Assembly (NCBI GenBank): GCA_903642325.1
Contig: CAHJWM010000012.1
Location: forward strand, 1-64,000
Direction: 5' to 3'
DNA from: Myxococcales bacterium
GTDB lineage: Bacteria > Myxococcota_A > Polyangia > Polyangiales > Polyangiaceae
Length of the DNA: 64,000 bases
Shown here: positions 8,713 through 55,521 of the stretch, in pieces
How the letters are laid out: the number at the start of each line of letters is the position of its first letter
How positions within the stretch are numbered: the stretch's first letter is position 1
Program-made: the position numbers and the translations under genes
The notes under the pieces: generated by a model
Told to the model about the DNA's origin: nothing
The model's database searches: none
Seen by the model: the letters and a program-made list of their open reading frames with translations, nothing else

Positions 8713-11700
8713 TTAGAGGTGGGTCTGCACCCAGGCGTCGATGCGCCGCACGTTCCCAGTGCGAGCGAACACGGCCGCCGACTGAGACGTGCTCAGAGAC
8801 AGAGTGCCCTGCGCCGCCTTGGACCCGTCTGCATAACTCAGCTCGAGTCGCGGCGTTTCTGCGAGGTGGTAGACGACGAGGACGCCGCAGTAACTGAAGG
8901 CGAGGCTGGCTTTGGCAAGCTCGACCCGAAGCGACTTTCCTTGCGCGTCGAACGTTTCGAAGCAAGCGGGCTCACTCAAAAACTCGGACCTCCGCAAAAG
9001 CAGCGGCCGAAGCTCGATGCGGCCCTGACTCACGCGCACACCTAGCTCCGCAAAGCGCGTCATGACCTCTTCCTTTACCTGCCCGGTCATACCCGGTTGA
9101 CGCGCGCCGGCGTGGCTCGGCGTGTGTGAGTACGGATCCAGCGGGAAAGCCCCGTACACGCTCGGCGACTTGTTGAAGCCGCCCAGGCCTTCGCGGACTG
9201 CGTAATAACGCTTCACCAGCTCGTCGACCACCTCACGCGGCGCACCGCGGTCCGTAGCGCTAAAGACGTGCTCGCTGGCCGCCAGTAGTAGCTTCGCCAC
9301 CATGTGCCAATAGATACTGCCCAGGCCCTCGTAAGCGAACATCGAGCCACTTCGTCCGGTGAAGCTGCGGTGGTCGAATGTTTGCTCGTAGATATCGAGA
9401 ATCTCGGAAATCTCGCGCTCACCGAGCAATGGGTGTTGCAGCTCCGTCAGCGCTTTTGCGCAACGGTCGGCGTTGTAAAAATCGGAGTTGAAGCGCAGGA
9501 CGCCTTGCGCGTCCCGCGACACGATGCGCGTGTCGCTGCCCGCCAGCATTTCGACGAGTGTCGTAGACTTGGCCAGATTCGCGGCTTCGATCACGTTCTT
9601 GCCCAAAAAAGTAGGCAGAATCCGATCGGGATAGAGCGTGAAGCTATTTTGATCGGCGCGGTACATGGCGCTCTTCTCCAGCGCGGCAAGAACTGCGGCG
9701 GCCTCTTCCGCAACCATGCTGCGCGTACTCATCGCCGCGACTTGACCCTCCAGCATTTCATACAAGGGTTGAACGCCCACACTGCCATCGGCGTGGAATA
9801 CGAGCAGATTGTACGCGTGATAGAGACCGTCCACCCGTCGATTCCGACGGATTGAGTCTTTGACCCAGCGTTGCGCGAGCACGAGCAAATCGTGGACGTC
9901 GCTCGAGACAAGCTCGACTTTTCGCTCGAGACCCGCGGCATACAAAACCTCCCGATAGTCGGAGGCGGCCCCGCCCAGCGCATCCATGATCGTACGGCGC
10001 GCTTGGTCGTCGAGCTTGCCGTCGTCCAACGAAGAGATTTGGTCGCGCAACGTTGCGACGGTTTTTTCGAGCCACGTTGCGACCTCGGTCGACAAGCTCA
10101 CCCGTTCGCCCAGCCCCGCGCAGAGCTCGACCAGGACGCTCAAGTAGCGCTCTAGATAATAGAGCGTGACCATGGACACGCCGTACCCGACCAGCGCATT
10201 GTTCGCGTCATTCCACTCGGGCCGGCCCGTATTGAGCCAAATTCCCGCACCGGGAACGAAGTTTCCGAGCTTACCAAGGACGGCGACGAGCAGCTTTTCC
10301 AGCAGCGTCACCCGGTGCAGACCGGCCACGTTCCCGAGCAGCTTTGCGTCCGATCCGAGCTCCGACACGCGCCGCACGATTGACTTTTGCTTACCCGTGT
10401 CGAATTCGATCGTGTCCCGCACGTTGCTCAAGATCTCGCGATAGGAGCGAATGCGATACGGAACGTCGGCATAGGCGAAGATCTCGCGCTCGAGCAGCCC
10501 CGGCAATCGATCCGGATGGTGGTTCCGTGAGAGCTCGATCAATTTGCATAGGTAAATGATTTGGTGATCGCCCCAGTAGCCGATGGAAGCCCAAGGGTGC
10601 TCGGGCTCGGGCACCTCCCAATCGATGCCGTCCTGAGTGATACGGTAGGGGTTGTACCCATCGGCGGTGGAAGCGTTTACGAACTTGACGACGATGTTTT
10701 CGATGAAGTCAGGATAGGAAAGGGATAGGGCCTCCCAGTTTTGGAAGATGTCCCGCCAATTACCCTGAAAACCCAGTAATTTTTGATCGTCCGCATCACG
10801 CACTCGGATTTCGAACCGGTTCCAAGGGCGGCTCGGGTCGCCGTGTCGACGGCTGAAGGTGAGCGGCAGATACTCGTAAGACAAGCGCACGAGGTCCGGG
10901 TCGAGTGTCGACTCAGCGCGTTCGGAGAGCTCGCGCCGCGAGAGCAAAGCGGGCAGCTCCGTGAGTAGTGATTCGTGGCGTGCGAACGTCGTGCGGTTCC
11001 AATTTTTTACGAACCGGGCAAAATCGGCGGATGGCACTTGGCAGCCATGAGCGTACACGCCGCCCCGCAAATCATTGAAGAGTACGTTCGCCAGGTGATG
11101 AAAGGACGACAAGCGATCGGCGGTCAGTTGCAAACCGTCCGTGTCAGCTACGATTCTACGAAGATTTTCGGTGCCGCGCTTCACATCTGCCAGCACCTGC
11201 CGCGCAAGTGCTTCTGGGTTTTCGAGCGACGCCAACAATTGGCTCACCGCCTGCTGAGAGCGGGCGACGTCTGCCACCATCAGCCAAGTTTTTGTCTCAC
11301 CCGGACCAAGCGTTACCGTAGCTTCGAGCAGGTAAGCGCCGCGCCGTGCGCGCACTTCCGCGCTGGGGACTGGCAGATCACCGTGGGCGAAAAGCTGGTT
11401 GTGCTCGGATGACAAATGAATGGCTGCGCCAGCGAGGCCGTGGCTCCAGACGGTCGTCGCGTGCAGCGACTCGCGTGGTTCAGCGCGGTCCACGACCTGG
11501 GCGGCGAGGGTATAGAGTGCGAGCGGGCCATTGCCTACGCGCTCGTTTTTTTTGTAGGCGTCGAGCAAGCAGCTGAAGCCGAGTTGCATCGCGTCGTCGA
11601 CGTCGGCGGGCAATAGATTCTGCAGACCATCGAGGACCTGCACCGAAATCGATTCTTGACCGCGGTTCTCGAGCTGGCACTCGCGGACGAAGCCGTATGC

Positions 11701-12198
11701 GTGGCTAGTCGACCAACGATAGCCGAAGCGAACACCCAAGTCATCGTTCGTTTCGCTCAGGCAAAGCTCGTTACCGAGCGTGCTCTTTTCCAGCGTTCGC
11801 GACATTCTGTACACGCGCTCCGCACTGTCGCGAAACGGCTCCCACAGCCTGCGTGACGGAGTGGCATCCGCAGCACCGCTGGCGCGCCCGGCATGCTCGA
11901 TAATCAGCGCCGTGTGCGGACCAGAGACCTGCGCGCTGTCCGTCAGCTTATCTTCGGTGGTGTATGGGAAGAGCGCGAACTTGACGTTTCGACGGCCCGC
12001 GGTCAGCGCTCCATTACTCGAGACGAACAGCCAATGATCCGAGTCGCTGACCACGCTCATCAGGAACGGCCGCATGCCTTCCGCGTGCTCGATGGAGTAA
12101 AAGGTTCCGGAGCCGGATTCCACCAGGCGACCAGTGGCTGCGAGCTCGGACTGGGGTAACCGATGATTTCCCAAAAATACGCCTGCGGGCCGGCTCAT
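8713..12198 (-). CDS. Large uncharacterised protein, (alpha/alpha)6-toroid glycosidase/phosphorylase-like
   Basis: 1161 residues without signal peptide or membrane segment, so probably cytoplasmic. The first 370 residues look like a beta-sandwich (for example SSNGALTAGRRN near 60-75, LENRGQESISVQVLDGLQN near 180-200). The rest is mainly helical with conserved-looking aromatic blocks: PLTFSRRHGDPSRPWNRF, FQGNWRDIFQNWE, and YWGDHQ at 541-546. This sandwich-plus-helical-toroid layout recalls the GH94/GH36-like carbohydrate phosphorylases, but their GDWND catalytic motif is not seen, so activity is unknown. Start ATG 12198 is supported by GGAGAG two bases upstream. The gene is divergent from a kinase-fold protein; the two may act together (inference). 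Confidence 0.7.
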   Translation of the reverse strand: MSRPAGVFLGNHRLPQSELAATGRLVESGSGTFYSIEHAEGMRPFLMSVVSDSDHWLFVSSNGALTAGRRNVKFALFPYTTEDKLTDSAQVSGPHTALIIEHAGRASGAADATPSRRLWEPFRDSAERVYRMSRTLEKSTLGNELCLSETNDDLGVRFGYRWSTSHAYGFVRECQLENRGQESISVQVLDGLQNLLPADVDDAMQLGFSCLLDAYKKNERVGNGPLALYTLAAQVVDRAEPRESLHATTVWSHGLAGAAIHLSSEHNQLFAHGDLPVPSAEVRARRGAYLLEATVTLGPGETKTWLMVADVARSQQAVSQLLASLENPEALARQVLADVKRGTENLRRIVADTDGLQLTADRLSSFHHLANVLFNDLRGGVYAHGCQVPSADFARFVKNWNRTTFARHESLLTELPALLSRRELSERAESTLDPDLVRLSYEYLPLTFSRRHGDPSRPWNRFEIRVRDADDQKLLGFQGNWRDIFQNWEALSLSYPDFIENIVVKFVNASTADGYNPYRITQDGIDWEVPEPEHPWASIGYWGDHQIIYLCKLIELSRNHHPDRLPGLLEREIFAYADVPYRIRSYREILSNVRDTIEFDTGKQKSIVRRVSELGSDAKLLGNVAGLHRVTLLEKLLVAVLGKLGNFVPGAGIWLNTGRPEWNDANNALVGYGVSMVTLYYLERYLSVLVELCAGLGERVSLSTEVATWLEKTVATLRDQISSLDDGKLDDQARRTIMDALGGAASDYREVLYAAGLERKVELVSSDVHDLLVLAQRWVKDSIRRNRRVDGLYHAYNLLVFHADGSVGVQPLYEMLEGQVAAMSTRSMVAEEAAAVLAALEKSAMYRADQNSFTLYPDRILPTFLGKNVIEAANLAKSTTLVEMLAGSDTRIVSRDAQGVLRFNSDFYNADRCAKALTELQHPLLGEREISEILDIYEQTFDHRSFTGRSGSMFAYEGLGSIYWHMVAKLLLAASEHVFSATDRGAPREVVDELVKRYYAVREGLGGFNKSPSVYGAFPLDPYSHTPSHAGARQPGMTGQVKEEVMTRFAELGVRVSQGRIELRPLLLRRSEFLSEPACFETFDAQGKSLRVELAKASLAFSYCGVLVVYHLAETPRLELSYADGSKAAQGTLSLSTSQSAAVFARTGNVRRIDAWVQTHL

Positions 12199-12274
12199 GT
12201 CTCTCCATTGTCACGTTTTGGGGCAAGCCGAGGCCGGCTGCCGTTTGGCAGCTCAGTGTCCGGCCGGTGCACCG

Positions 12275-13225
12275 GTGATCACGGACACCGCATCACTGTT
12301 GGCTGCTGTGATGCAATCCGAAATCGCGCGCGATCTAGCTAGCGCAACAGCGGCGCTGCCGCCCTCCCCACGGGCACTTGCCGCGAGGCGTTCGTTCTGG
12401 AACGTCTTGGAGATGGAAGACGAGCGCCTGGTCCCGGTGTCGCCTCGACATGCTGTGTTGTTGTCGGGCGAATACTTGGCTTTCGTCGATACGCCACCGC
12501 AGAGGGATTACGTCGTACGCACCGTCGCCAAACGTCAAGTCGGGGCGATGATGCTGATGTCGGGAGATTTGGTCATCGCCAGCGCGGAGACGCGCTCGAG
12601 CTTTCCGCTCGCAGCCAAATACCCTCTTCATTTTCGTAAGTCCTACTTTCCCGGTCAGATGCACGGTGAGACGAAGGACGAATTTGCTCAACATGCTCGC
12701 GCCAGCAACCTGATCGACATCCCACCACCGATAGGTCACACGCCCAACACCTTTCGCAGCTGTTTGCTACCGGGGCGGCCTTACAGTCATCTATCTCCAT
12801 TCTTCGGCGTCGACCCGCCAAGCGCGAACATAGCGGAAGCGGAAAAGCTCGCCTTGGCCGGTGCCGCTGGCTTGTGGAAGCTGTGTGAAGAAGCATTGGA
12901 CAAGCTACTCACTCTGCAAGCGGGTGGGCTCGCGCATGGCGACGCCGAGCTCCACAATTTCATTGTTTGCCCGACGCCCTTGGAATTGATTCTGATCGAT
13001 TTCGAGGGCTCCGTTAACCGCGAGGCTCTGTCGGACGCCGAATGGCAAAAGCGCTGCGCGGTGGACCTCGAGCCCTTGCTTCGAGAAGCCGTGTACTTGC
13101 AGTGTGCGCTCGGTAAACAACAGGGTCCGCTCGCCGAGCTGTCTATCGAACGAATGTCGCTATTTTTCAAGCACCCCGAGCAATTCCAGCGCGCCATCGA
13201 GCTCAGGGCGAGTGTGAGTAGCTGA
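12275..13225 (+). CDS. Atypical protein-kinase-fold phosphotransferase
   Basis: About 316 residues. The catalytic loop is HGDAELHNF (H221, D223, N228 in this numbering) and the metal-binding motif is DFE (D242-F243-E244). These are the marks of the APH/ABC1/lipopolysaccharide-kinase side of the kinase superfamily rather than of Hanks-type kinases. There is no clear glycine-rich loop, and the N-terminal half carries unassigned sequence, so it might phosphorylate a small molecule or sugar instead of a protein. The longest frame begins at ATG 12197, within the same CATG that starts the opposite gene, with no ribosome-binding site. GTG 12275 or ATG 12311 are more likely; the N-terminus is uncertain. 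Confidence 0.65.
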   Translation: MITDTASLLAAVMQSEIARDLASATAALPPSPRALAARRSFWNVLEMEDERLVPVSPRHAVLLSGEYLAFVDTPPQRDYVVRTVAKRQVGAMMLMSGDLVIASAETRSSFPLAAKYPLHFRKSYFPGQMHGETKDEFAQHARASNLIDIPPPIGHTPNTFRSCLLPGRPYSHLSPFFGVDPPSANIAEAEKLALAGAAGLWKLCEEALDKLLTLQAGGLAHGDAELHNFIVCPTPLELILIDFEGSVNREALSDAEWQKRCAVDLEPLLREAVYLQCALGKQQGPLAELSIERMSLFFKHPEQFQRAIELRASVSS

Positions 13226-48533: not shown

Positions 48534-48634
48534 ATGGGCCAGTGTGACGAGAGCCAAGGGGGATCAGTGTCCAAAAATTCTCATTCGAGTGGCCCTTCTA
48601 CCGTTCAGACGCGAGTGCGCTAAGTTTGTGCGGA

Positions 48635-49924
48635 ATGTCGATGGCGGCACGCAGCGCGATTAAGCGCTTGGTCGACCGATTGCCGCGCTGGGGGGCCCGT
48701 CTCACCGCGCTCATTGCGCTCATGCTGCTTCTGTTTGGACGCGGTGCGCAGGCGAGCGAGCCGGGCGAGGCGCTGACCATTTCCCTCCTGACCATGGGTC
48801 CGGGCGAGCACCCGTTCACGAAGTTCGGCCACACGGCGATTTGGGTGCATGACGCGCAGGCCGGGCGCGACGAAGTTTACAACTTTGGCACGTTCGAGTT
48901 CGATTCGCCGACGCTGCTGCTCGATTCAGTGCAGGGCAAGCTCCCGTATTGGCTTTCCGTACAGAGCTTGGCCGGTACCCTGCGCAGCTACGAGGAAGCA
49001 CAGCGTTCATTGCTTGCATCCGAGCTCGCGTTGACTCCCGCGGAGCGAGCTCTGCTGTACGACTCGCTGCGCGAGAATGCGAAACCTGCCAATCGCTATT
49101 ATCGCTACGACTACTATCGAGACAATTGCGCAACGCGCGTGCGCGATGCGATCGACCGCGCCGTTGGTGGGCGAGTCCGCGCGCTCTCGCAACGGCCAGC
49201 GCGGATGAGTTTTCGAGCCCACACCCTGCGCTTGGTCGCCGACGATATGCCTTTGTACGCGGCCCTAGATTTGGCGGTCGGGCGGCAGACGGATGCGCCG
49301 GTAAGCTTTTGGGACGAGGGCTTTTTGCCCGCGCGATTACACGATTTGATGCTCAATACGACGGTGATCCGCGAGGGTCAGACGGTGCCGCTCGTGGCCC
49401 GCGAGCGGTTGCTACTGCCCGCGGCGCTCGCCTTACCGCGCGCCGAGCCGCCGGATTGGCTCGGATACTATCTGCGGGTTGGCGCCGCGCTTGGGGCGTT
49501 GCTCGCCGCCCTTGGGGTCGCCGCCCACTACGCGTTACGCATGCGGAGGGCCCTCGCCGTCGCGTTCATCCTACTCGGAGCATCGTTGGGGTTACTGGGC
49601 TGCGCGCTTTGCTACCTGACGTTCGTCTCATTGCACTCGGCCGCCGCCGCCGATTACAACGTCTTGCTCGTGCCGCCATGGCTGCTGCTCCTCGTCGGGA
49701 TAGGGCCGAGCCTGGTGCGCGGAAGCCCGTGGGCGTGGGCCGCCGCGCGTTGGATCACGAGCAGCGCGGTTTTATGCACCGGCGCCGCGGTTTTCGTGCA
49801 CGCCGTGCAGCACGCTCCGCAGCAGAATTGGCAAGAGATCGCCTGCGCGTTGCCGCTATGGTTGGGCGCCGCGGCGGCCGCACGCTTGGGGTCTACGTGG
49901 CGGGCGGTGGAGGCAGTTCGGTGA
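48635..49924 (+). CDS. DUF4105 membrane protein (NlpC/P60-like fold)
   Basis: 429 residues: an N-terminal signal or membrane segment (about 25-42), an extracytoplasmic DUF4105 domain (about 50-250) and four or five C-terminal membrane helices. The putative papain-like residues are His in KFGHTAIWV and Cys in YYRDNCATRVRD. The domain is presumed to hydrolyse a peptide or ester bond in the periplasm. ATG 48635 is chosen because it gives the N-terminal helix near the start; TTG 48626 is possible. Divergent from the FG-GAP gene by about 100 bases. Confidence 0.82.
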   Translation: MSMAARSAIKRLVDRLPRWGARLTALIALMLLLFGRGAQASEPGEALTISLLTMGPGEHPFTKFGHTAIWVHDAQAGRDEVYNFGTFEFDSPTLLLDSVQGKLPYWLSVQSLAGTLRSYEEAQRSLLASELALTPAERALLYDSLRENAKPANRYYRYDYYRDNCATRVRDAIDRAVGGRVRALSQRPARMSFRAHTLRLVADDMPLYAALDLAVGRQTDAPVSFWDEGFLPARLHDLMLNTTVIREGQTVPLVARERLLLPAALALPRAEPPDWLGYYLRVGAALGALLAALGVAAHYALRMRRALAVAFILLGASLGLLGCALCYLTFVSLHSAAAADYNVLLVPPWLLLLVGIGPSLVRGSPWAWAAARWITSSAVLCTGAAVFVHAVQHAPQQNWQEIACALPLWLGAAAAARLGSTWRAVEAVR

Positions 49925-50187: not shown

Positions 50188-50646
50188 TCAATACGGTTGC
50201 ATGCCGTGAAGCAGAGCACGCCCGAACCACACCACTGCGACCACGACCGCGACGATTAGCAGCACGATGAAGAGCAACAGTCGCCCGAGACAGCCGCCTG
50301 CTCCACGCCCAAGTGCCGCCCTTTCGCGCCTCGGGGTCGCCGCCGCTACAACGGAGCCTGCGCGTAGGATAGCGGACAGGATCTGCTGCCAGGGCGCCAA
50401 TGTAGAGCCGCGAATCGCTTTCTCATCGGCCGAGGCGCGCGTGCGCACGGGTGGAGCCGGCGCAGACGGGAGGCGACTCTCATCGCCAAACTGCGCGCCG
50501 CACGCGGGGCACGTGCGCCCATCCAGCCAAAGGCCCGGCGTGTGGTTCGTGCAAAAATATCGAGCTTGCGCTTCATGGCAAGCGTCGCACTCGCCGGGCG
50601 TTGCTCGTGTGGTGCCGCAGTTTGGGCAACGCAGCGTGACGCTCAT
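50188..50646 (-). CDS. Zinc-ribbon protein with one C-terminal membrane helix
   Basis: 152 residues. The N-terminus has paired metal-binding Cys: CPNC and CDAC (residues about 7-23), then C-H and CPAC (about 31-52), making two zinc ribbons or one with a treble-clef. A Pro/Arg-rich spacer leads to a membrane helix (about 125-145, LLLFIVLLIVAVVVAVVWF) near the C-terminus. ATG 50646 overlaps the phosphatase stop (ATGA). It is the last of four co-directional genes (vWA, kinase, phosphatase, this) and may anchor the module to the membrane or supply a nucleic-acid or protein docking site (inference). Confidence 0.75.
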   Translation of the reverse strand: MSVTLRCPNCGTTRATPGECDACHEAQARYFCTNHTPGLWLDGRTCPACGAQFGDESRLPSAPAPPVRTRASADEKAIRGSTLAPWQQILSAILRAGSVVAAATPRRERAALGRGAGGCLGRLLLFIVLLIVAVVVAVVWFGRALLHGMQPY

Positions 50647-51905
50647 TCCGGCGCGTCCGCACTCGCGCCCGTCCCGGCTCCATCGACGTCTGGCGCGGGA
50701 AAGACCGCATGAATGAGATCGCTCGGCGGATAAAGCTGGTAGACCTGCGGCAAGGTCCATGTGACCACGCGGGCCAGGGTCGGCGCGCGTTCGTAGGGGC
50801 CGAACCGCTCGCGGTTCAAGCGGCGGGAGAGCGCGACCGTGGTTAGTACAGGATGCGTGCGGTAGGCGGGGTAGATCGCGTAGCGCTCTTCGACATGGTC
50901 ATGGCCGCGCACGAGGTGGGTCACCGGTCGGCCCATGCGCGCGCTGAGCGCGCAAAAGTCTGCGAAATCCTCATAGCCAAATTGGCTGCCGTGTGAAAAT
51001 CGATTCGGCATCTTTCGGCGCGCTTTGGGATGCATGCGCGCCCAGACGAAGTCCGACAAGCACGCCGGGTCGTTCCAATTGCCGCTCTTTTCCAGCCCCG
51101 CGTGCAAATCCACCAGCGGAAAGCCGCCGTGCGCAACCAAAAGCCCGTCAGGAAAGAAGAGCGCGCGCGGCGCGTGCGCAGTCAGCCGCAACGCCAGCTT
51201 GCCCACACGCGCGATCCATTCGTGCGCCAGGTTCGCATTCAAGAAGTCGGCAAAGTCCGACGGCGAGACGCTCGAGCCGAACCGCGCGCCGTCGTACGAC
51301 AGCGCTTCGTCGTGGTTGCCTGCGATCACACACACCTGCGCCGGCGCCTCCACGATCAGCTCGAAGATCCGCACCAAAACTTCCAGGCCAAAGCCTTCGT
51401 CGTCGATGAAGTCGCCCAAAAAAATGACGCGTGGCGCCCGGCTCTCTGTCGCGGCGTGAAGGCGTATCTGCATGAGCGCCGCCTCCAGCGCCAGCAGATC
51501 ACCGTGCAGATCTCCAATGATCCACAACGGGCTTGCCTCGTCCATCTCGGACACTCGGATCGCTTGGTCCGAGGCGTGAGCCCGATCGATGTCGAACAAC
51601 AACCCGGGGCCGCCCGCACGGTCGAGTAAGGTTTCCATCCGCTCGACCGCCACGCGCATGCGAGTCCGGACCGCCGAGGCATTGGCGGCTTCGCCGACCG
51701 CCCGCCAGTCGAGCTCCCGCACCGCTACCACCGGTAAAGCGGCCGTCACCGAAGGAACTGGCGGACACCCGTTTGGCGAGGGCTCGCTTGGGCCGGATGC
51801 CGACTCTGCCATCACGGCGGCGCGCGCGGAGTCCCCGACGCGTGCTTCAGGGATGCCGTCCGGGGCAGCGCCAGAGCGCGGATCATCGACAGGAATTTCC
51901 GACAT
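50643..51905 (-). CDS. Calcineurin-like/PPP-type metallophosphatase
   Basis: 420 residues. After a 60-residue disordered start and a helical part, a metallophosphatase core (about 127-400) has the motifs GDLHG (131-135), GDFIDDEG (164-171), GNHDE (196-200) and a late GHDH. The spacing and the GDxHG/GDxxD/GNH set are those of PPP Ser/Thr phosphatases; the usual DRG is IDDEG here. It could remove phosphates put on by the adjacent kinase. It overlaps the zinc-ribbon gene by 4 bases and follows the kinase by 15. Confidence 0.85.
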   Translation of the reverse strand: MSEIPVDDPRSGAAPDGIPEARVGDSARAAVMAESASGPSEPSPNGCPPVPSVTAALPVVAVRELDWRAVGEAANASAVRTRMRVAVERMETLLDRAGGPGLLFDIDRAHASDQAIRVSEMDEASPLWIIGDLHGDLLALEAALMQIRLHAATESRAPRVIFLGDFIDDEGFGLEVLVRIFELIVEAPAQVCVIAGNHDEALSYDGARFGSSVSPSDFADFLNANLAHEWIARVGKLALRLTAHAPRALFFPDGLLVAHGGFPLVDLHAGLEKSGNWNDPACLSDFVWARMHPKARRKMPNRFSHGSQFGYEDFADFCALSARMGRPVTHLVRGHDHVEERYAIYPAYRTHPVLTTVALSRRLNRERFGPYERAPTLARVVTWTLPQVYQLYPPSDLIHAVFPAPDVDGAGTGASADAPE

Positions 51906-51920
51906 GTTCCAACTCGCAGC

Positions 51921-53315
51921 TCAGCGACCGCGTGCGGTGAGCGGCAGTTTCATTACGCCCTTCTCTTGACGCCCGACGGCAAGCACGTCGCCATCGTGAA
52001 GCGCGCGCGGCGCGGTCAGCGTTTTGCCGTTGACCAAAGTCTCGTTCGTAGTGCCGGCGATTGGTGCCACGACCCACTGCCCGCCAGCCGCGCGCTCGAG
52101 AATGCATTGCCGGTTATCCCAGAATTCGCCGTCTGGCCCGAACTGCCGCGCGACTGCCTTTCCAAGCTCCGTCCGGATCCCGATCTGAATGGAATGGCCG
52201 CCGCTTCCGAGCAGCTGAAGCGTGTTCGATATGAGCGCGTCCCCGGCGGCGCGAGCGGGGGCCTCGGCAGCGGCAACGGGCAGTGTTTTGGGGCGCGCGG
52301 CGGGCACGGGAGCGACACCGGGCCCGATTTTGAGAGGCGCGGCAGGCGCGGGAGCGGCTGAAGGCGCAGAGGAGGGCTTTTTCGGCAGCTCGGACTTCGC
52401 GCCGCGACCGTTCAAAATGTCGCGCAGCGCGGCGGCGGTGGGCCGTGCCGTCGGATCGGGCGAGAGACAGCGATAGAGCGCGGCGCTTACTTCTTCATTG
52501 CTTGCCGGCAGCGGCATGGATCCGAGCAAGGCTGGGGGCTTGGCGGCATAGGCCTGCACGAGCGCGGCATACTCTGCCTGATCGTCTCGCCAGTAGGGAT
52601 GATTGCCGGCGAGCAGCTCGTAAAGCATCAGCCCACACGTGAACACGTCGGAGGCAAGGCTTGGCACGGAGCCACGCGTCAAATGCTCGGGCGAGCGGTA
52701 GTTGTCGCTACCCACATAGCCTTGAAAGCCGTGCCAGGGCGCGCGTCGGTCAGACAGTAAGGAGAAGTCCATGTCGATGAGCTTCAGCTGATAGCCGGCG
52801 CCGAGGCTTGAATCCTCGATCAAGTAGGCATTTGCCGGCTTCAGGTCAGCGTGCACCACGTTGATTTCATGCAGCGCTGCGATGGCCGCGCTCAACACCT
52901 TCGCCCAGGTGACGTGCCGCGCCCAGACCTCGGGCTCGCGCGGCGGCGCTCTCTTCGTCAGCCGATGCCGCTCGCGCTCGGCATCCAGCATTTGTTGCAG
53001 GTCTCCACCGTGTGCCACGAACTCGAAGGCTTGAAAGTAACAGGGCCCACCCCACCGCTCTTCGAATGCGTCCACTTGGCGCACCGCGAAATGGGCCGCT
53101 CTGCCAGTTCGCACCCGCGCGGCCAGCTCTTTCTGATAGGCGACGAACGCCGAATACCAGACGACCGTCGGTGCGGGCGATTTGTACTGCTTGAAGAATA
53201 CTTTTTCGCCCGACGGTGCCTGCGCCGCATAAGAAATTGCCATCATCCCGGGCCCGAACACCTGGGTGATGCGGTATCCGTGGATGGCGTCGCCGACTTT
53301 GAGCTTCTTTGCCAT
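51921..53315 (-). CDS. Ser/Thr protein kinase with C-terminal FHA-like domain
   Basis: 464 residues. The kinase domain (about 12-300) has HADLKPANAY (H155, D157, K159, N162) and DMD (181-183) in place of DFG; APE is SPE in NYRSPEHLTRG. The glycine loop (GPGMMA) is unusual but D157 and N162 argue for activity. Residues 300-360 are a Pro/Ala linker and 365-460 an FHA-like beta domain (SIQIGIRTELGKAV, NETLVNGKTL, LHDGDVLAVG), which would bind phosphothreonine. It lies between a vWA gene (29 bases upstream) and a phosphatase gene. No membrane segment. Confidence 0.87.
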   Translation of the reverse strand: MAKKLKVGDAIHGYRITQVFGPGMMAISYAAQAPSGEKVFFKQYKSPAPTVVWYSAFVAYQKELAARVRTGRAAHFAVRQVDAFEERWGGPCYFQAFEFVAHGGDLQQMLDAERERHRLTKRAPPREPEVWARHVTWAKVLSAAIAALHEINVVHADLKPANAYLIEDSSLGAGYQLKLIDMDFSLLSDRRAPWHGFQGYVGSDNYRSPEHLTRGSVPSLASDVFTCGLMLYELLAGNHPYWRDDQAEYAALVQAYAAKPPALLGSMPLPASNEEVSAALYRCLSPDPTARPTAAALRDILNGRGAKSELPKKPSSAPSAAPAPAAPLKIGPGVAPVPAARPKTLPVAAAEAPARAAGDALISNTLQLLGSGGHSIQIGIRTELGKAVARQFGPDGEFWDNRQCILERAAGGQWVVAPIAGTTNETLVNGKTLTAPRALHDGDVLAVGRQEKGVMKLPLTARGR

Positions 53316-53344
53316 GCCGGTTCAGCGCGAAAATGGCGCAGACC

Positions 53345-54199
53345 TCAGAGCGCCACCGTCTCCGCCGAGCGAGAGACGCTCGCCGCCAGCTGCTTCAGCG
53401 TGTTCCGGAAATTAACCGGGTCAGCTGTAAACTTTTGCAACGCCTCCTGCGGGCTCAAGCCTTCGAACTCGACGGACTCCCACTCCGACTTGTCGATTTG
53501 GCTGAGGCGGTCGTAACCCTCGAAATTGGGCGCAAACAAGCTGAGGATGATTCGGTTGGCCATGACGACGTTCGCTACGTCCTGAAGCGAGCCACCCTTG
53601 GCCTCCGGCAGGCTCATGGTCTCTTTGAAGGAGGCATCGGTAAACACGATCACGACGCGCGCCGCGTCGCTTCGATAACGCCATTTCTCGGGGTCCTCAC
53701 CTTGCGAGCCTTTAGGGATAGCCGGCATGGAGGCGACCTTGAACAGCGTATCGAGCAGTGATTCCGGCTCGTCGCCACCGCCCTCAGCCTTCAAGGCAGC
53801 GAGTTGCGATTTGAGCACGGCGACGTCGCGCACGAAGGGATTTTCTACGATCCAAGGTAAGCCTTCACTCTCGGCCGACTCGATGTCGCGGTAGCCGACC
53901 ACTTTGGCGCGCCAATCCCGCACCGGCGCGACGTTGTTGCCGTCGCCGCGACTCAACGAATCGATAAACGCCTCGATGTTCTTGCGCAGCGCATCGATGC
54001 ACGGCGCCATACTGCCGCTCACGTCGACGACGAACACGAGGTCCGCCACCCCCTTGGTTTTCGCGCGTGCTTGCGGCGCGGGTGCGTCCCGAGCCGGTTC
54101 AGCTACGCCCGCGCCCACGCCTGCGGTAGTCGGCTCGGCAGAAGCGAGGGTCACGCCGAGCGATGCGTCGACGTCGTCTGGTGGCTTCGGGTCAGTCAT
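53345..54199 (-). CDS. von Willebrand factor A (vWA) domain protein
   Basis: 284 residues. An N-terminal Pro/Ala-rich stretch (about 1-48) and one vWA domain: MIDAS loop DVSGS (59-63) after DLVFVV, and AEGGGDEPES, a motif shared by vWA domains linked to bacterial alpha-type and other kinases, with FTDAS as the third MIDAS part. It should bind a divalent metal and act as a scaffold or target for the downstream kinase. It is the first gene of the four-gene module. GGAG stands 9 bases before ATG. Confidence 0.85.
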   Translation of the reverse strand: MTDPKPPDDVDASLGVTLASAEPTTAGVGAGVAEPARDAPAPQARAKTKGVADLVFVVDVSGSMAPCIDALRKNIEAFIDSLSRGDGNNVAPVRDWRAKVVGYRDIESAESEGLPWIVENPFVRDVAVLKSQLAALKAEGGGDEPESLLDTLFKVASMPAIPKGSQGEDPEKWRYRSDAARVVIVFTDASFKETMSLPEAKGGSLQDVANVVMANRIILSLFAPNFEGYDRLSQIDKSEWESVEFEGLSPQEALQKFTADPVNFRNTLKQLAASVSRSAETVAL

Positions 54200-54420: not shown

Positions 54421-54810
54421 TTATGTTTCGTCGTCCTCGTCGTCCTCCTCGTCCTCGTCGTCCTCATCATCCTCGTCCTCTCCCTCGCCATCGTCGGAAG
54501 CGCTGATCAGCAAGGCCTTGGCTTGCTTCGCGCGGGCGGCAGCTTCCTCTTGGCACTCTTGGAAAAAAGCGAGTAGGTCTTCCGCGCCGGCCTTGCGGGC
54601 GTCTTCCTGATATTTCCGCGCTGCATCAGCTGCTTTTAGGGCGTGATAAAGGACGCTCGCTAAGCCATAAACGTGGTCGTCTTCCGCGTCGACCTCCTCG
54701 TCTTTCGCAACGGGTGCTGGGCTGCCTTTGAGCGGGCTTTTACTCTTCGACGCATCCCCAGTGACTGGTTTCACTGGCGGCTTTGCTTGTTTCGCTTGTT
54801 GCTTTGCCAT
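54421..54810 (-). CDS. Ferritin-like helical small protein with acidic tail
   Basis: 129 residues. A basic Lys/Pro-rich start (1-30) leads to two helices (about 45-100: YGLASVLYHALKAADAARKY and EDLLAFFQECQEEAAARAKQ) that look like half of a ferritin-like/DUF2383-type bundle. The last 24 residues are nearly all Asp/Glu. I do not recognise a named family. GGGAG stands 6 bases before ATG 54810 and decides the start; the frame is open far upstream but lacks such a site. It lies 221 bases upstream of the vWA operon on the same strand and has its own promoter. Confidence 0.72.
   Translation of the reverse strand: MAKQQAKQAKPPVKPVTGDASKSKSPLKGSPAPVAKDEEVDAEDDHVYGLASVLYHALKAADAARKYQEDARKAGAEDLLAFFQECQEEAAARAKQAKALLISASDDGEGEDEDDEDDEDEEDDEDDET
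54424..54495 (-). repeat. Low-complexity acidic codon run (GAC/GAG microsatellite)
   Basis: On the plus strand this reads as an almost continuous run of CGTC, CCTC and CATC triplets, coding the Asp/Glu tail of the gene. Such runs are prone to slip, so the tail length may vary between strains. Confidence 0.55.
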
Positions 54811-55521
54811 TGTAACTCCCTTTACGTCGGCCCCCTGCAAGGGGTGCGCCGCTTGCAGTTGGCGCTGGGCGACAGACGCGGAAGTCGCAGCGCTCGCGCT
54901 GAGTGCTTCGTGAGCGCAGACGGCCGCAGCCCGCGGCACAACGCTGGCGGGCTGCGCCGTGCAGGGAATGTTGCACGCGTGTGCCGCAGCTTTGACGATG
55001 CGATCCTCGATGCGGGCCGACATTCGTCTACGATCTGATGCGAAGCGGCTCGCTGGGTTGTGGCGACGCAAAAACGCTGCGATGGCACAAAGCCCCGGAA
55101 GACGGCCGGCCGGATGTCGAAGGCCAACCCGGCGCAGCGACTCTTGCCGGGCTCAGTGAGCTCACCCGTTCGCCTCGCGGACGGAGCAGCGGCGCGCGTT
55201 CCGCCACGGAGTCCGCTCCGTAACGCAGGGGCTCGAGGACGGGAGAGCGAGCTTGCGGTCATTGAGCGCCACGGGCATCCAGTAAGGGAATTGCGTATAC
55301 CTATTACTGGCAGCTAAGCGCGCGAGCTCACCAGGCGGCGCGAGAACCAGCCGGTCCTCGACGCCGAAGGCTTTGACGTTCCCGCCGTTTCGGTGACCAC
55401 GATCCCAACATTCAGAAGAAGCGGCCGCTAGTCGACTCGATTGCCGCTTTCGCTGCGACGGACGTTTCGGGAGCCGAAACGAGATCCGGGCCGGTCCGCG
55501 AGCGGGGCAACGTCCCTTCTC
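54811..55521. other. Long intergenic interval, no gene recognised
   Basis: 711 bases between the acidic-tail protein gene and the di-heme cytochrome gene. Frames of 60-150 codons exist on both strands, but they lack ribosome-binding sites and family features, and their amino-acid use is that of chance frames in GC-rich DNA. Near 55332-55428 a 32-codon plus-strand piece (reading about RRRENQPVLDAEGFDVP) looks more protein-like and might be a gene remnant. The ribosome-binding site of the acidic-tail gene lies at the left edge. Confidence 0.4.

Follow-up and report, generated by a model that had tools for sequence, protein, structure and literature searches.

A four-gene set encoding a vWA protein, a kinase-FHA protein, a PPP-like phosphatase and a membrane zinc ribbon, and its possible role as a phosphorylation switch in several bacterial phyla

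The window analyzed here, a stretch of 64,000 nucleotides (1-64,000) from a Myxococcales bacterium, carries on its minus strand four genes encoding a vWA protein (53345..54199; 284 aa), a Hanks-type Ser/Thr kinase with a C-terminal FHA domain (51921..53315; 464 aa), a PPP-like metallophosphatase (50643..51905; 420 aa) and a tail-anchored double zinc ribbon (50188..50646; 152 aa). An earlier note on this DNA had described four co-directional genes of these kinds, and they lie at the positions and on the strand first noted; the first three are identified by Pfam domains (VWA_4 and VWA; Pkinase and FHA; Metallophos) and the last by its zinc ligands and C-terminal transmembrane (TM) helix. For the zinc-ribbon gene the start is at 50646, in a 4-bp overlap with the phosphatase stop, and not at the first ATG of its reading frame (50760). 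The genome (5.8 Mb, 140 contigs) holds a single copy of the set, and the base composition of the window shows no anomaly at the cassette. A gene for an Lnb-type membrane protein (Lnb_N and 5TMH_Lnb; 48626-49924, plus strand) adjoins the set and is convergent with it; it is not common to other loci. A 216-aa ORF upstream of the vWA gene (54421-55071, minus strand) has a highly acidic Asp/Glu tail at its C-terminus; we found for this ORF no Pfam match and no counterpart at other loci.

In the vWA protein, for which the Pfam models VWA_4 and VWA both exceed their cut-offs, a disordered N-terminus precedes a vWA domain with a MIDAS (D59-S61-S63), a GGGDEPES motif (140-147) and FTDAS (D188). The DVSGS MIDAS and the GGGDEPES motif picked out previously are both present, and their residues are close to invariant among relatives; the C-terminal tail, NFRxTLKQLAASVSRSAETVAL, is near-invariant to the last residue. 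The proposed likeness to vWA domains linked to alpha-kinases was checked through the VWA_4 match alone, which is weak evidence for it, and a PDB search with the vWA profile gave no match.

The kinase domain (Pkinase, E 2e-22 for the window protein) has its catalytic residues at K42, E63, H155-A-D157-L-K159, N162 and D181-M-D183. When conservation is counted over the relatives whose sequence covers each site, the Lys, the Glu, the HxDxxxxN motif (HADLKPxN) and the metal-binding Asp of D181-x-D183 prove invariant or nearly so. The unusual LIDMD in place of DFG, already remarked upon, is genuine: the Gly of DFG is an Asp, the D-x-D is invariant, and judging from the alignment the protein keeps all the catalytic residues of an active Hanks-type kinase. 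A Pro/Ala-rich linker leads to the C-terminal FHA domain (about 365-460). That this tail is FHA-like holds at the level of the domain, with a Pfam score of 25.5 bits against a cut-off of 20.7, FHA matches at E<0.01 in 19 of 21 relatives, a match to a kinesin FHA domain in a PDB profile search (E 8e-4) and a confident structural model of this part (pLDDT 80-94). It holds less well for the phosphopeptide pocket, where the phosphothreonine-binding GR, SRxH and NGT residues are replaced by GK, D-x-R-Q and NET, the Ser becoming Asp and the His becoming Gln, so that phosphopeptide binding by this domain is uncertain. Elsewhere the kinase was modelled poorly (pLDDT 53), and its fold search was left out of the evidence; the fold comparison covered residues 4-104 only and says nothing on the FHA part. 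Matches of the kinase to the PADLOC models PD-T4-6 and Mad6 were rejected as specific assignments, being generic kinase-domain matches.

The phosphatase had been assigned to the PPP/calcineurin type rather than to PP2C, and both profile and fold comparisons place it close to the PPP enzymes. It matches Metallophos (E 1e-11) and carries the motifs GD132xH134G, GD165xxD168D169, GN197H198D, H259, N301-R302 and R333-G-H335-D-H337; the metal-ligand and catalytic motifs GDxHG, GDxxD, GNH, H and RxH are invariant in 27 sequences, and a C-terminal block resembles the PP1-type WxR..NR..GSxFG..RGH. Profile searches returned BSU1, rdgC, PP5 and calcineurin (E from 1e-6), and the best Foldseek matches of a modest model (pTM 0.68, pLDDT 62) were PP2A, PP1 and PP5, with E about 1e-7 to 1e-6 and TM about 0.31-0.41 by query length. 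One correction concerns the DRG signature: in all close relatives the DRG of GDxxDRG is DD(E/G), without the Arg, and GNHE is likewise GNHD. With no DRG Arg, and with a GNHD variant that is common to nucleotide phosphatases, the enzyme may have a non-protein substrate.

The smallest product is, as anticipated, a zinc-ribbon membrane protein. It has two zinc sites with invariant ligands (C7, C10, C20 and C23; C32, H35, C46 and C49), a disordered variable linker and a single C-terminal TM helix at about 123-141, with a TM in most members of the family. Pfam gave no match above cut-off and weak zinc-ribbon hints only, the PDB search with its profile gave no match, and a comparison with the TerY_C metal-binding domain gave no relation. 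Two Gemmatimonadota versions (L020:7927-8997; L061) run about 180 residues past the TM helix, and the extension in L020 carries TPR repeats.

These four genes form a co-inherited unit. Relatives of the vWA protein were sought by exact peptide patterns in one genome per species (84,980 species), a scan whose count is a lower bound and which found at least 23 at 76-93% identity. The genes for the vWA protein, kinase, phosphatase and zinc ribbon have identical order and strand in 18 of the 19 sufficiently long GTDB loci, which excludes a chance grouping and rejects the notion that the homologues are never found together; the exception (L024) has no detectable zinc ribbon, and four other loci end at contig ends. 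The genes are tightly coupled for translation: the vWA and kinase genes are usually 4-44 bp apart, the kinase and phosphatase genes often touch or overlap, and the 4-bp overlap of the phosphatase and zinc-ribbon genes is found in nearly all loci. Beyond the four, any one neighbor is found at a few loci at most. In the close family 20 flanking genes were scanned; their functions are varied and unrelated, none of them in defense, and neither among these genes nor near the set in the window is there a Ter gene, as the earlier note had observed.

Hosts span Myxococcota, Alpha- and Betaproteobacteria, Gemmatimonadota and Acidobacteriota, so no particular link to Myxococcota can be maintained for a set that is patchy over at least four phyla. 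It also occurs on Rhizobium and Microvirga megaplasmids, and was absent from the viral contigs and phage records searched. On a plasmid of Rhizobium leguminosarum RCAM0610 (L044:9737-12893) the kinase and phosphatase frames are broken, reflecting either a pseudogene or sequencing errors. Several of the hosts (L002-L024) have epithets that evoke air or desert (aerilata, aerophila, arida, deserti). The suspicion that this variant is uncommon was well founded. With each count including the centre genome, picked because it carries the set, it was present in 1/385 Alphaproteobacteria, 2/282 Myxococcota, 2/249 of the Sphingomonas family, 2/200 of the Roseomonas family, 6/249 Gemmatimonadota, 3/199 Acidobacteriota, 1/199 of the family of a Rhizobium and 1/200 of the family of a Polaromonas-labelled bin, or about 0.3-2.4% of sampled genomes.

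In a tree of the joined proteins the window groups with two Myxococcota loci and then with Betaproteobacteria-labelled bins, while both Pseudomonadota and Gemmatimonadota are split. Pairwise protein distances of the vWA protein, kinase and phosphatase correlate (r 0.64-0.85). Proteins remain 52-85% identical among loci (45% for the most distant phosphatase) while identity at fourfold-degenerate sites is mostly 0.3-0.5, close to the chance level of about 0.33 expected from composition, and the high protein identity therefore reflects strong purifying selection; recent transfer was rejected as its cause, since synonymous sites are near saturation. Together with the invariant catalytic and metal-site residues, this indicates an old, mobile and rare set that is strongly selected as a unit.

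More distant relatives depart from this plan in several ways. A Gemmatimonadota locus (L058) has an extra gene (11312-12952) between kinase and phosphatase, encoding about 430 residues of Ser/Thr/Ala/Asp-rich low complexity followed by the same FHA domain at its end, a possible multi-site phosphorylation substrate. In a Myxococcota genome (G010; L064, 192-10846) a vWA protein (37-40% identity), a kinase and a PPP phosphatase with canonical DRG and RGNHE stand in a different order, and the locus also encodes a zinc-ribbon protein and a transglutaminase. By profile, the kinase matches that of the window at 99%, although almost any Hanks kinase would match it well, and the phosphatase at 97%. Two large upstream proteins at this locus have no Pfam match. 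One C-terminal module recurs there in three proteins, namely the kinase, the one with the transglutaminase and a further one (BLASTP E 4e-17 and 2e-19); the module of the kinase was considered as an FHA domain, and comparison with the window FHA gave no relation.

One Acidobacteriota genome (G1553) places a distant set within a type III-D-like CRISPR-Cas locus (L075:1-18000 and L076, on the same contig). This set comprises two vWA proteins, a kinase-FHA protein, a zinc ribbon-FHA protein (FHA match 97%), a PPP phosphatase and a double zinc ribbon without a TM helix, with identities to the window set of 56% (vWA), 45% (phosphatase) and 39% (kinase). Upstream on the same strand are several RAMP proteins (Cas7 type III-D, E 2e-18), a Cas10-like GGDD protein, a coiled-coil membrane protein that weakly matches ZorA (E 4e-4) and, by eye, an OmpA-like ORF; on the other side lie a convergent gene for a CARF7 protein (PADLOC E 8e-91; Pfam Cas_APE2256) and a CRISPR array of 12 copies. 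Such surroundings hint at immunity or stress control.

One of the closest described parallels is TerY-P, a switch of vWA protein, kinase and phosphatase, with TerY-P-like modules in antiphage defense (PMC11090510, PMC7699616). On plasmid R478 it consists of the TerY vWA protein, a PP2C phosphatase and a kinase with a C-terminal zinc ribbon. Our set is likewise an operon that joins a vWA protein to a kinase and a phosphatase and includes zinc ribbons; its kinase domain matches the R478 kinase by profile (93%), and that kinase also has D-x-D instead of DFG. However, the phosphatase is PPP-like and the set has no PP2C, the kinase carries an FHA domain rather than a zinc ribbon (or OB fold) at its C-terminus, the zinc ribbon forms a protein of its own, anchored in the membrane, and there are no Ter genes nearby. 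The vWA protein, although stand-alone, is of the VWA_4 type and scarcely related to TerY, with a match probability of 12% to R478 TerY against 98% to a vWA protein of Calothrix. Of four defining TerY-P features tested, a Ser/Thr kinase in the operon is present, whereas a TerY-type vWA protein, a PP2C and a kinase-fused zinc ribbon are missing, and we reject an identification of the set as a TerY-P triad. The C-terminus of the R478 kinase looks like the window FHA by eye, and comparison of the two gave no relation.

A plasmid of Calothrix sp. 336/3 brings the set nearer to known triads than had been thought. There, a vWA protein and kinase that match those of the window by profile (98% each) are followed by a phosphatase in the same order, but this is a PP2C and not a PPP enzyme, and no FHA or zinc-ribbon gene was found. 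Since related vWA and kinase proteins are here paired with PP2C, a swap of the phosphatase seems to have taken place, and the window set is less something apart than a phosphatase-swapped cousin of triads already known. In Herpetosiphon, a vWA protein is followed by a protein with PP2C-like motifs (by eye, without a Pfam match) and then by a kinase. Kinase, vWA, FHA and phosphatase also make up an on/off switch in the threonine phosphorylation pathway of the type VI secretion system (T6SS; PpkA, PppA and Fha1) (PMC3224232). In that pathway, however, kinase and vWA domain are fused in one protein, with the vWA domain on the outer side, the phosphatase is different and the T6SS is the target, and no T6SS gene is a shared neighbor of our set among the loci compared, with their flanks of varied function. 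The T6SS-pathway phosphatase is PP2C-type. The GAP1-N2 systems link a vWA protein, a kinase-zinc ribbon and a PP2C (PMC7159879); they differ from the present set in using PP2C and in belonging to the GTPase conflict systems of actinobacteria. The literature searched, which did not include the original 2012 Ter study, yielded no published description of a PPP version. The best reading is a variant of the vWA-kinase-phosphatase switch that works like TerY-P but is not TerY-P.

We consider it reasonably probable that the set is a self-contained, horizontally spread and reversible Ser/Thr phosphorylation switch. For its catalysis, substrates, complex formation, location and biological role we infer the following scheme. 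The kinase, as writer, would phosphorylate Ser/Thr residues of a partner, for which the vWA protein is the likeliest candidate and a cell protein held by the MIDAS site an alternative. Our best guess for the phosphorylated site is the vWA tail, because its Ser/Thr residues are near-invariant and it is conserved to the end. The vWA protein itself would be a peptide- or metal-binding partner, the FHA domain a phospho-adaptor that helps assemble the complex, and the PPP-like phosphatase the eraser that resets the switch. The double zinc ribbon would tether this assembly at the membrane and perhaps acts as a sensor of metal or redox state. That the genes are inherited together and translated in a coupled way suggests that their products assemble in fixed stoichiometry. 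The most likely role appears to be control of a stress or defense response, which we favor because of the TerY-P analogy and the single genome with a CRISPR-embedded distant relative.

A rival possibility, to which we give limited credence, is stand-alone antiphage defense, in which infection would alter how the set or the host's proteins are phosphorylated and would halt growth. The sporadic presence in four or more phyla and on megaplasmids, the reports of antiphage TerY-P and TerY-P-like modules and the distant copy beside CARF and ZorA-like genes are all in keeping with this. However, the proteins are extremely conserved, unlike typical fast-diverging defense genes; the set lacks an effector (nuclease, NADase or pore), the flanks of the close family are not defense islands, and no PADLOC model matches the vWA protein, the phosphatase or the zinc protein. 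It is similarly speculative that the PPP-based family is antiviral both alone as a four-gene system and, within a type III-D-like CRISPR-Cas locus that has ZorA-like and CARF parts, as an accessory switch. We regard as equally tentative an abiotic stress or metal-homeostasis switch for dust, desert and surface habitats, with the vWA protein and zinc ribbons as metal sensors; the MIDAS, the eight invariant zinc ligands, the host epithets and the metal-sensing switch proposed for TerY-P would fit, but the habitat pattern is anecdotal and uncontrolled and the loci share no neighboring gene for metal transport or stress. That the 'phosphatase' acts on nucleotides (ApaH/Pnkp-like), the unit making or clearing a small signal, is improbable: the GNHD and DD(E/G) variants and weak NCBIfam matches to Pnkp and ApaH allow for it, but Ser/Thr phosphatases come first in profile and fold searches, the C-terminal motif is PP1-like, the gene always adjoins that of the kinase and the distant homologue in L064 has canonical motifs.

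In summary, a compact four-gene set of putative writer, eraser, scaffold and anchor, easily moved to a laboratory host, suggests a vWA-kinase-phosphatase switch so modular that a eukaryote-like PPP enzyme could take the place of its phosphatase, in a version that has been kept almost unchanged across phyla. If the CRISPR link is true, protein phosphorylation would enter type III CRISPR immunity.
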